Positions 12,449 through 16,286 of a stretch of DNA of 64,000 nucleotides are shown here, one piece after another (position 1 is the first letter of the stretch; each line of letters begins with the position of its first letter). Source of the stretch: Lacrimispora saccharolytica (lineage in GTDB: Bacteria > Bacillota > Clostridia > Lachnospirales > Lachnospiraceae); the NCBI GenBank assembly GCA_021531795.1, contig JADYUL010000003.1, positions 1-64,000 on the forward strand. The letters run 5' to 3'. Below the pieces are notes generated by a model. It was not told the DNA's origin. It did no database searches and saw only the letters and a list, made by a program, of their open reading frames with translations. Position numbers and translations under genes: made by a program.

Positions 12449-13207
12449 TTATTTCTTAGAATCATCCATTCTGCGTCTCTTAACGCCTTCCATGATCACC
12501 TGTCTCTTCTCCAGAGCCTTGCCCTTATCCATGGGTGGAACATCCTTGAGGACATAATCAATACCAAGATTCTCATACTTGGGCTTAGCCATGTCGTGAT
12601 ACGGCAGAACCTCAAGACCCTTAAGTGTATGGAGTCCGCCGATGAAGTATCCAAGCTTGTCAAGATATACATCATCATCCGTTATTCCGGGAACTACGAC
12701 GTGACGAATCCAGATATCAATGCCCTTGTCTGATAGAAGATTGGCAAAAGCTAATATTCCGTCATTGGGCTGGCTTGTCAGATCCTTGTGCTTCTCAGGG
12801 TCGATATGCTTGATATCAAGCATGACCAGATCTGTTAACTCAAGTACCTTATCAAGTTTGGCATTATATGCCTCATTACCGGGCTTATAGGTGATACCTG
12901 AGGTATCGATACAGGTATGAATGTTATTTTCCTTGGCAAGAGTGAAAAGCTCAAGAAGGAAGTCAATCTGAAGTAGAGGCTCACCGCCTGTAACGGTTAT
13001 TCCACCACCCTTATAGAAGCCCTCATTTCTCTTATATTGTTCAATGATATATGAAGCCTCCATCTCTTCACCGGCATTAACCGGCCAGGTATCCGGATTG
13101 TGGCAGTACTTGCATCTCATGGGACAGCCCTGGAAAAAGACGACATATCTTACTCCGGGTCCGTCTACCGTACCGAAGCTCTGTAATGAATGAATACGTC
13201 CTTTCAT
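12449..13207 (-). CDS. pflA: Pyruvate formate-lyase activating enzyme (radical SAM)
   Basis: A 252-residue radical SAM enzyme that installs the glycyl radical on pyruvate formate-lyase. The cluster motif CPMRCKYCHNPDTW places cysteines at 28, 32 and 35, followed by the SAM-binding GGGITVTGGEPLLQ stretch. Length and sequence are normal for PflA, with no extra ferredoxin domain. It is last in the minus-strand pfl cluster, downstream of the free glycyl-radical subunit and separated from it by a hairpin (13244-13272). In this locus its substrate would be the small protein encoded at 13304-13546. Confidence 0.95.
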   Translation of the reverse strand: MKGRIHSLQSFGTVDGPGVRYVVFFQGCPMRCKYCHNPDTWPVNAGEEMEASYIIEQYKRNEGFYKGGGITVTGGEPLLQIDFLLELFTLAKENNIHTCIDTSGITYKPGNEAYNAKLDKVLELTDLVMLDIKHIDPEKHKDLTSQPNDGILAFANLLSDKGIDIWIRHVVVPGITDDDVYLDKLGYFIGGLHTLKGLEVLPYHDMAKPKYENLGIDYVLKDVPPMDKGKALEKRQVIMEGVKRRRMDDSKK

Positions 13208-13243: not shown

Positions 13244-13272
13244 AAAGAGCCAGTGAAAACACTGGCTCTTTG
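13244..13272. terminator. Hairpin terminator between the glycyl-radical gene and pflA
   Basis: AAGAGCCAGTG (13245-13255) pairs with CACTGGCTCTT (13260-13270). On the minus strand it is followed by TTTCTTC. It probably reduces, rather than abolishes, transcription into pflA, since no clear promoter is seen between. Confidence 0.7.
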
Positions 13273-13303: not shown

Positions 13304-13546
13304 TTACATAGCCTGATGGAATGTACGAGAGATAACATCTGCCTGCTGTTCAGGTGTAAGCTTAACGAAGTTAACAGCGTAACCTGATACACGGATTGTT
13401 AACTGAGGATAGTTCTCAGGATGAGCCTGTGCATCCAGAAGAGTATCTCTGTTAAGTACATTTACGTTAAGGTGATGGCCGCCCTTTGTAGCGTATCCAT
13501 CAAGTAAGTTAACCAGGTTATCAACCTGTGCTGAAGATGTAGCCAT
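13304..13546 (-). CDS. Free-standing glycyl-radical subunit of pyruvate formate-lyase (GrcA-like)
   Basis: An 80-residue protein that corresponds to the C-terminal tail of ordinary pyruvate formate-lyase. It starts at the equivalent of NLVNLLDGY, continues through [16 protein letters not shown] and PENYPQLTI, and carries the radical motif RVSGYAV with the radical glycine at position 55. It ends ISRTFHQAM like full-length enzymes. The large pfl protein at 13861-15900 ends just before this segment, so the two together make one complete enzyme. GrcA/YfiD proteins repair oxygen-cleaved enzyme in enterobacteria; here the same domain appears to be the only radical carrier. An AGGAGG-type site precedes the ATG. 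Confidence 0.93.
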
Positions 13547-13573
13547 TTCTTTGTCCTCCTTAATTAATGTTTG

Positions 13574-13777
13574 TTATTTGTAATCATCAAGTCCCTGATG
13601 AAGTGTAGGAACGCTACATGCAAGAGGTGTACGAGAACAATCTGTACATCCCATTGTTTCCACTTCCTTGACCTCATCTGAAGAGTCATCCGAATATACA
13701 TTCACATGACCTACACCCTTGCTCATTCCTGAGTCAAGCTGCTTAACCAGATCGTTAATCATGTCTGCTTCATTCAT
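13574..13777 (-). CDS. Small radical-less relative of the glycyl-radical subunit, cysteine-containing
   Basis: A 67-residue protein of unknown function between the two parts of pyruvate formate-lyase. Residues 5-30 (INDLVKQLDSGMSKGVGHVNVY) resemble the start of the glycyl-radical segment ([21 protein letters not shown]), but the protein then diverges. The RVSGYAV motif is absent and the tail has CTDC plus a third Cys in PLACSVP. The start at 13777 is preferred over 13813 because AAGGGG lies upstream. It may be an assembly or protective partner for the split enzyme, or a decayed duplicate that gained a metal or redox site; this is inference. Confidence 0.75.
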   Translation of the reverse strand: MNEADMINDLVKQLDSGMSKGVGHVNVYSDDSSDEVKEVETMGCTDCSRTPLACSVPTLHQGLDDYK

Positions 13778-13812
13778 TGGTATCGTCCCCTTTCTTGTAA
13801 AATTTATTTCCA

Positions 13813-13832
13813 AGGGGTCTTCACAGACCCCT
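13813..13832 (-). other. Intercistronic hairpin in the pfl cluster
   Basis: AGGGGTC (13813-13819) and GACCCCT (13826-13832) form a strong stem between the large pfl gene and the 67-residue gene. There is no immediate T run, so an mRNA processing or stability role is more likely than termination. Confidence 0.5.
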
Positions 13833-13860
13833 CAGCAAACTTTAGTTATCGGCCTTACAA

Positions 13861-15900
13861 TTACTTGTTAAGGTCAAGCTCGATATCGCCTGAAACAACC
13901 TTCATGTCCTTACCAAGAGCGTCAGGAATGATTGTGAAGGTGTTAGAGATACCATCCTGTGAGTACTCAAATGGAAGCTTAGATACTGATGAAAGTGAAG
14001 CTACAGCACCATGAGTATCACGTCCGTGCATCGGGTTAGCACCGGGAGCGAAAGGCTGTCCCTTCTTACGTCCGTCAGGTGTGTTACCTGTTGCCTTACC
14101 GTATGTTACGTTAGATGTAATAGTAAGAACTGACATTGTAGGGAAGCTGTCTCTGTATGTATGATGACGTCTGAGCATCTTCATGAATGTCTCAACGAGG
14201 TCATGAGCAATCTTATCAGCTCTGTCATCATCGTTACCATACTTAGGGAAGTCACCTGTTGTCTCGAAGTCAACAATGATACCATCCTCATCTCTGATAG
14301 GCTTAACTGTTGCATACTTGATTGCACAAAGTGAATCAGTTACAACTGAAAGACCTGCGAAACCTGTTGCAAAGTAACGATATACATCTCTGTCATGAAG
14401 AGCCATCTGAGCTCTTTCATAGCAGTACTTGTCATGCATGTAGTGGATGATGTTAAGAGTATTAACATATACACCTGCTAACCACTCCATCATGTCTGTG
14501 TACTTGTCCATTACATCATCGTAATCAAGTACATCACCTGTTACAGGACGATACTTAGGACCAACCTGCTTCTTGGTAACTTCATCAACACCACCGTTAA
14601 GTGCGTAAAGAAGGCACTTAGCAAGGTTTGCTCTAGCTCCGAAGAACTGCATCTGCTTACCGATAACCATTGAAGATACGCAGCAAGCGATACCGTAATC
14701 ATCACCATGAGTAACTCTCATGAGGTCATCGTTCTCATACTGAACTGATGATGTCTGGATAGAAATCTTAGCACAATACTTCTTGAATGCCTCAGGAAGT
14801 CTTGTAGACCAGAGAACTGTAAGGTTAGGCTCGGGAGCTGCACCAAGGTTCTCAAGTGTATGTAAGTAACGGAATGACATCTTTGTTACCATGTGACGTC
14901 CGTCGATACCAACACCGCCGATTGACTCTGTAACCCAAACCGGATCACCGGCGAAAATCTGGTTGTACTCAGGAGTACGAGCGAACTTAACGCAACGAAG
15001 CTTCATGATGAAGTGATCGATGAACTCCTGAATCTGTTCCTCTGTGAATGTACCGTTCTTAAGGTCTCTCTCAGCGTAGCAGTCAATGAATGTAGATGTA
15101 CGTCCAAGTGACATTGCTGCACCGTTCTGCTCCTTAACTGCTGAAAGGTATCCGAAGTATGTAGCCTGGATAGCTTCCTGAACGTTGGTAGCAGGCTTAG
15201 AAATATCACAGCCGTAAGAAGCTGCCATTTCCTTCATCTGCTTAAGAGCAATGAGCTGCTCTGAAAGCTCTTCACGAAGACGGATAACGTCATCTGTCAT
15301 AACGAAGCCTGTTGACTCCTTCTGAGCTTCCTTATCCTCGATAAGTCTGTCAATACCGTAAAGAGCGACTCTTCTGTAGTCACCGATGATACGTCCACGT
15401 CCGTATGCATCAGGAAGACCTGTGATAACGTGTGATGAACGACAAGCTCTCATCTCAGGTGTGTAAGCATCGAAACATCCTGCGTTATGTGTCTTGCGAT
15501 GTGTTGAGAAAAACTCACTGATCTCAGGATCTACTGTATATCCGTTATCAGCACAAGCCTTCTCTGCCATTCTGATACCGCCGTATGGCTGCATAGAACG
15601 CTTGAATGGCTTATCTGTCTGGAAACCAACAATTGTCTCCTTGCTCTTGTCAAGGTAACCGGGACCATGAGATACGATAGTAGATACAACCTTTGTATCC
15701 ATATCAAGCACACCGCCTGCCTCACGCTCCTTCTTGGTTAAATCCATAACCATTGCCCAAAGGTCCTTTGTGTTCTGTGTAGGTCCTGCGAGGAAAGACT
15801 CATCTCCGTCATATGGAGTGTAGTTCTTCTGGATGAAATCACGTACGTTGATCTCATCTTCCCACTTGCCGCCTACAAAACCGTTCCATTCTGGTCTCAT
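13861..15900 (-). CDS. Pyruvate formate-lyase large fragment lacking the glycyl-radical segment
   Basis: A 679-residue formate C-acetyltransferase body. It opens with [19 protein letters not shown] and contains the active-site cysteine pair ACCVSSM (Cys406-Cys407) that carries the acetyl group. Full-length enzymes have about 740-760 residues; this one stops after [16 protein letters not shown] plus a short non-homologous tail (DIELDLNK), so it has no RVSGYAV glycine. The missing segment is encoded separately at 13304-13546. The reaction is pyruvate plus CoA to acetyl-CoA plus formate, in the cytoplasm. AGGAGG precedes the ATG, with a near-consensus promoter 66 bases upstream. Confidence 0.94.
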
Positions 15901-15965: not shown

Positions 15966-15994
15966 ATTATAGATTGCGTAAATAGGGCAGTCAA
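15966..15994 (-). promoter_or_regulatory. Strong promoter of the pfl cluster
   Basis: On the minus strand TTGACT (15994-15989) and a perfect TATAAT (15971-15966) are separated by exactly 17 bases. It reads into the large pfl gene. Confidence 0.85.
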
Positions 15995-16097: not shown

Positions 16098-16286
16098 ATG
16101 AAGATTACTAAAGATATGACAATCGGTGAGATTTTGAGTGCCAATCCCGCAGTTGCACCTGTACTCATGGAAGCGGGAATGCATTGCCTCGGCTGTCCTT
16201 CAGCTCAGGGAGAGAGCCTGGCAGAGGCTGCCTTCGTTCACGGTATGGACATCGATGCACTTATGGCTAAGATTGAAGCACTCTAA
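16098..16286 (+). CDS. DUF1858 domain protein
   Basis: A 62-residue protein made of one DUF1858 domain: [24 protein letters not shown] with a CxxC pair, then [12 protein letters not shown]. The domain occurs alone or fused to redox proteins such as hybrid-cluster protein relatives and ScdA-like proteins; its exact role is unknown, and a redox or cluster-related function is assumed. AGGAGG sits seven bases before the ATG. It is transcribed divergently from the pfl genes and ends at a bidirectional terminator. Confidence 0.88.

Follow-up and report, generated by a model that had tools for sequence, protein, structure and literature searches.

The window analysed here is the whole stretch of 64,000 nucleotides at the start of contig JADYUL010000003.1 of Lacrimispora saccharolytica (Lachnospiraceae; assembly GCA_021531795.1). 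Its pyruvate formate-lyase (PFL) locus is read from right to left and comprises the following features:

15966-15994, minus strand: promoter-like TTGACT-17-TATAAT upstream of the PFL body gene (11 of 12 consensus bases)
13861-15900, minus strand: PFL body, a formate C-acetyltransferase of 679 aa without radical domain, with Cys406-Cys407 (TIGR01255, PF02901, alignment to 1h16)
13574-13777, minus strand: a 67-aa protein, hereafter mid, with a GrcA3-like N-terminal part of about 32 residues that is followed by a Cys tail (GCTDCSRTPLACSVPTLHQGLDDYK), and no glycine loop
13304-13546, minus strand: GrcA3, a free glycyl-radical subunit of 80 aa with radical Gly55 (NF038360; PF01228 positions 50-106)
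13244-13271, no strand: perfect 12-bp inverted repeat with a 4-base loop, between the GrcA3 and activase genes (read from the sequence)
12449-13207, minus strand: PFL-activating enzyme (radical SAM) of 252 aa (TIGR02493, 280.9 bits; cut-off 231.75)

The body scores 1109.3 bits against TIGR01255 (cut-off 994.2) and carries the Cys-Cys pair of PFL, but the radical glycine is absent from its chain, the match stopping at model position 665 of 744. Gly55 of the 80-aa protein lies within RVSGYAV (SGYA motif) and falls on Gly734 of E. coli PFL; this protein is assigned to the NCBIfam family of the autonomous glycyl radical cofactor GrcA3 (NF038360) with 160.7 bits, for a cut-off of 158. The 106 positions of the Pfam domain Gly_radical (PF01228) are divided between the two chains, positions 1-50 in the body and 50-106 in GrcA3. 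The initial annotation had described a PFL broken just before its radical-glycine segment, and its coordinates, lengths and residues for both proteins are correct. Aligned to E. coli PFL (1h16), the body is covered to residue 680 and GrcA3 corresponds to residues 682-759, so that the two parts lie side by side with the break between residues 680 and 682. The homology evidence thus supports the view that body and GrcA3 together make one PFL. The same annotation had seen two parts only, and had overlooked the third gene between them.

To the same annotation the small protein also looked like the only radical carrier, and this agrees with searches of the whole genome (2.15 Mb, 99.82% complete), where GrcA3 is the sole PFL-type carrier found. 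PF01228 matches nothing beyond the two halves, and neither a second PFL-like gene nor another PFL-type radical domain was found. In E. coli an intact PFL is present and YfiD serves as a back-up, whereas the assembly of the window's genome showed no intact one, the single PF02901 match, where a spare part would call for a full-length enzyme, being the truncated body itself. A sequencing error or a frameshift can be ruled out, because the same break recurs in 44 of 120 genomes of the family and because each gene has its own ATG and a purine-rich ribosome-binding site. The best explanation of this gene content is that GrcA3 acts as a permanent separate subunit rather than as a back-up.

Among the 120 sampled family genomes, which include the window's own, 103 have a TIGR01255 match of any kind; 44 encode a truncated body and others a full-length PFL; two of the 44 (G085 and G119) have a full-length PFL over the cut-off as well. 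A GrcA3 query at an E value of 1e-40 matched in 50 of these genomes; in five of them the matching frames, of 748-789 aa, are full-length PFLs. The free radical domain is therefore found in 45 genomes, namely the 44 with a truncated body plus G022, where a short contig holds the end of a body, mid and GrcA3. In all 43 family split loci that were fetched besides that of the window (one of them, from G060, a fragment cut by the contig end), the first gene downstream of the body, or of mid where it intervenes, is a same-strand GrcA3. In the class as a whole 16 of 291 genomes, in eight families, score over the cut-off; in the phylum-wide sample the free form (E 1e-41) was found in two of 398 genomes, the window's own and another of the same family.

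The third gene has no Pfam or NCBIfam match and no credible counterpart among solved structures in the PDB (best E 0.35). Its start was taken as the ATG at 13777; a longer form of the reading frame begins at a TTG at 13813. A profile-profile comparison of 27 mids with 18 GrcA3s aligned 32 columns with an E value of 8.8e-9, and a mid profile searched against the window's genome, even at E 10, retrieved only mid (1.1e-32) and GrcA3 (7.2e-4). The homologous part includes the HLNVNV strand region of GrcA3, equivalent to residues ~704-709 of E. coli PFL, which lie within segment 696-733, the carrier of beta10 (PMC8683613); the strand of mid reads HVNV. Mid is homologous to the GrcA family in the docking-strand region and lacks its glycyl-radical loop with the glycine: none of 63 distinct mids, drawn from the best 80 relatives, contains SGY, and all 63 contain the Cys motif.

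These relatives come from a scan of public genomes in which 452 stretches matched a mid pattern and 425 encoded relatives of mid; the best 80 were analysed, so that they represent near relatives. Within these 80, the body is directly upstream of mid in every case and GrcA3 directly downstream in 79, the contig ending at the remaining locus (L086). Most of those with a name belong to uncultured Lachnospiraceae of the rumen or gut. Two metagenome-assembled genomes, RGIG9247 (L116 and L120) and Tb.RUG.144 (L086 and L109), have two body-mid loci each, either real duplicates or binning artefacts. In the family sample, mid lies between body and GrcA3 at 27 of 44 loci, a count that takes in L051, L052 and L075, and two of these 27 mids (L042 and L048) end after CxxC. 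With E values of 2.3e-14 or less, a mid profile detects the gene in 30 of the 120 genomes sampled from the family, namely these 27, G022, G002 and G006; in the latter two it is located away from pfl, and G006, a genome 67% complete, has mid and no PFL match. In one locus of the class sample (L160), mid follows GrcA3. Viral sources were also considered and rejected: a search of 50,697 phage records yielded nothing that matches mid, and among viral contigs 207 stretches fit a pattern, none of which was confirmed.

Mid evolves as a protein under purifying selection. The median dN/dS is 0.117 over 534 usable pairs from 104 sequences, all below 1, and a Shine-Dalgarno-like site precedes the gene in 61 of the 80 loci, versus 3 and 13 of 80 at two control positions. 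Conservation is strongest in the Cys tail, with a mean pN of 0.147 over residues 42-67 against 0.255 and 0.388. Such constraint speaks against a plain two-part PFL in which mid would be a leftover duplicate of GrcA3 with no role at the enzyme, as do its own ribosome-binding site and the location of the best kept residues in the tail. The existence of three split loci that manage without mid or a Cys tail is what such a leftover would predict; even so, 54 of the 58 split rows have mid or a Cys tail. We regard this reading as improbable.

Where mid is lacking, the body mostly bears a Cys tail of its own. The 58 split rows divide into 32 with mid, 22 with a Cys tail on the body, none with both and four with neither. 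For instance, the body ends in CGDMACKVPTLHKGIDD in L040 and in CSNGACSTPTLFEGLD in L166, and the mid profile matches the L040 tail with an E value of 5e-5. A strict mid pattern fits 11 of 21 body tails (shuffles: mean 0.0035, maximum 1) and a looser one 12 of 21 (mean 0.195, maximum 3); the ten tails outside the strict pattern are Cys-rich, and the nine outside the looser one are Cys-rich but different. Fisher's test for the mutual exclusiveness of mid and tail gives p 2.7e-12 when kinship is ignored, and a kinship-aware test, which has too few pairs, a median p of 0.125 with no pair in the opposite direction. L165, with its short CC tail, counts as a tail in the 58 rows and as "none" in the tree state count. 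One of the four rows with neither element at the locus (L071, genome G002) has mid on another contig; the other three (L163, L170 and L175) have neither mid nor a Cys tail in the genome (that of L163 being 82% complete), and the element is thus not indispensable. Most simply, these sequence patterns can be read as a tail whose site of action is the body, to which the N-terminal part of mid would bring it.

The tail could alternatively be a docking site for another partner, such as the activase, a reductase or a scaffold, with mid linking this partner to the body. The conserved PTLxxGLDD end, common to mid and many body tails, would suit such a site; no partner was found, however, and the comparison of activases from split and full-length systems gave few distinctive residues, none of them a cysteine, which makes this alternative unlikely. 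Residues that set split bodies, radical domains or activases apart from their full-length counterparts likewise include no new cysteine that could pair with the tail.

The activase of the locus, which lies downstream of GrcA3 on the same strand, is the cognate one for PFL. A short Cys-containing protein close to a radical SAM gene might also suggest a RiPP precursor peptide modified by its neighbour. Against this, the radical SAM enzyme is a PFL activase over its own cut-off, a same-strand activase match follows in only 50 of the 80 mid loci, some of them cut by contig ends, and the Cys motif is found on bodies too. A RiPP precursor is accordingly a highly improbable identity for mid.

The history of the split was traced with a tree of 100 bodies, trimmed ahead of the radical domain, built with a quick method without bootstrap and rooted at the midpoint. 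Four rows were left out: the fragment L076, L171, which repeats the window, and the mid-bearing L173 and L176. A branch with an SH-aLRT of 99 has on one side 57 of the 58 split rows together with four full-length PFLs, while L175, from another family of the class, corresponds to a separate split. On the best tree the mid and tail states have changed at least seven times. The four full-length PFLs (L009, L010, L015 and L016) are nested in the split clade and look like re-fusions. In L009, L010 and L016 the body runs straight into the radical domain with no cysteine at the junction, and in L015 the junction reads TCGCEEVTC, a Cys relic. Searches at E 1e-3 gave no match to mid in the four genomes with a re-fused PFL.

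The nearest described system is that of E. coli, where the free radical domain YfiD/GrcA can likewise serve a PFL body devoid of its own (PMC8683613, PMC12338860). The closest PDB matches of GrcA3 are YfiD (6owr) and the end of E. coli PFL. Compared with this system, the body of the window is cut earlier and GrcA3 lacks the 60 N-terminal residues of YfiD. PMC8683613 reports that E. coli PFL cut at 695 shows no YfiD binding detectable by ITC and 32-fold less radical, that once activated it has wild-type activity, and that the first 60 residues of YfiD also aid binding. A natural body that is cut before 695, with a partner lacking a YfiD-like N-terminus, should therefore need some compensation.

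The reading that we favor, at about even chances, is that of a natural split PFL in which GrcA3 is a permanent subunit and mid a dock accessory replacing the lost tether. GrcA3 would dock into the barrel of the body via a beta-strand and receive its radical from the activase, and the reaction would start at the Cys pair, as with YfiD on cut E. coli PFL; a GrcA3 cut by O2 could then be exchanged for a new copy of 9 kDa. Mid would work at the dock of the body for the radical domain, its N-terminal part imitating the strand region of GrcA3, and would position the conserved Cys tail just where such a tail is built into other split bodies. Its most likely role is to stand in for the covalent tether that was lost: it may hold or guard the empty dock and aid the loading or activation of GrcA3. 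A role in docking or loading is suggested by the expected need for compensation, by the near-constant presence of mid or tail at split loci and by the absence of the element from three of the four re-fused PFLs, and a guarding role by the imitation of the strand that fills the dock. The cysteines of mid could form a redox lid, a thiol quencher or a metal site.

The mimicry of the docking strand without the glycine, together with the conserved cysteines, would also fit an inhibitor or radical quencher that rivals GrcA3 for the dock and inactivates the enzyme through its thiols, for example when O2 enters or formate is unwanted. In other split loci, however, the Cys tail is fixed on the body, which suits a permanent helper better, and we consider an inhibitor rather doubtful. 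We also propose, tentatively, an extension of the split-enzyme reading: PFL would be a cartridge enzyme with a swapped radical subunit, and mid, made of the docking strand of that subunit with a Cys tail in place of the glycine loop, would be a dummy cartridge that fills and guards the active site while it stands open, either between two cartridges or in the half of the dimer that has no radical. Half-site reactivity of PFL is reported in vitro and unsupported in vivo (PMC12338860); speculatively, it would leave room for a dummy in the second protomer.

A replaceable radical subunit, which the initial annotation had proposed, finds some circumstantial backing in the family, since a further GrcA3 gene, on a different contig, is present in six of the 45 family genomes that have the free form (G031, G041, G042, G064, G080 and G112; a second copy in G097, next to another copy of the activase where the contig ends, was left out). 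No second copy was found in the window's genome. The neighborhoods of five of these copies (L196, L197, L200, L201 and L204, that of G041 being left out) contain no body, mid or activase, and in three of them (L196, L200 and L204) a Crp/Fnr-type gene is located just upstream on the same strand. These lone copies would fit a subunit that can be exchanged. GrcA3 also matches 1539 phage records, free domains and full-length PFLs together; of the ten such records listed, only two carry an annotation, which in each case is full PFL.

The split alone is known, as NCBI names GrcA3 and as split-type bodies are present in the PDB. In the PDB the body is matched best by 38la and 38lb (formate acetyltransferase), which are other proteins, and no chain matching mid was found; both entries look like split-type bodies, because the GrcA3 query matches neither chain, and the 38lb chain continues past the body with a stretch holding two cysteines. 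The named family and these two entries also indicate that such enzymes are under study. The name of NF038360 implies a stand-alone cofactor, whereas in 45 family genomes the free form accompanies a truncated body. In the open papers searched, none was found that mentions split pyruvate formate-lyase or GrcA3 or that, judged by title and start of abstract, describes the arrangement, and no name was found for the third protein. What is new here is this protein, an undescribed third component of split PFL. To our knowledge, mid has no described counterpart in E. coli, and no glycyl radical enzyme has yet been shown to have a placeholder subunit, so that mid, if it is one, would be the first.

PFL is central to fermentation by gut and rumen bacteria, and O2 cuts it at the radical glycine. 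The locus described here makes this fragile radical part a small separate protein in a gut anaerobe, and mid may help to fit or guard it; a separate radical domain is present in over a third of the sampled family genomes (44 of 120). An E. coli body cut nearby binds the spare part poorly (PMC8683613). Bacteria with a split PFL must have solved this problem, the obvious candidate for the solution being mid or the Cys tail. The answer could aid the making of radical enzymes that survive oxygen.

Small proteins with a mid-like start are also encoded outside pfl. One of them, in the window's genome, has a mid-like N-terminal part followed by a YHHGRCDIGSPWARG tail and has no Pfam match:

5154-5342 of L211 (contig C11 of the window's genome, about 374653-374841): 62-aa mid-like protein

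Proteins with this tail were found in 11 of 100 family genomes, ten of which also have mid; a twelfth match, in G020, is the mid of that genome and was excluded. The neighbors of the small proteins with a YHHGRCD tail gave no answer as to their role. A third kind, again with a mid-like start and away from pfl (L194 3893-4174 and L198 3575-3823), has a tail around CCN[MV]YG and LLDMYTDxNAG. The occurrence of such relatives with other tails away from pfl implies that binding to PFL need not be the task of the N-terminal module in every case.

Concerning the surroundings of the locus, the inverted repeat between the GrcA3 and activase genes may serve as a terminator or attenuator and so hold the activase at a lower level; it is not among the sites listed by the terminator scan. 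The promoter-like sequence upstream of the body is weak evidence, the promoter scan overall giving six sites, fewer than the mean of 9.4 in shuffles. Upstream of the body and divergent from it, a gene at 16098-16286 on the plus strand encodes a DUF1858/hybrid-cluster-associated redox disulfide protein.
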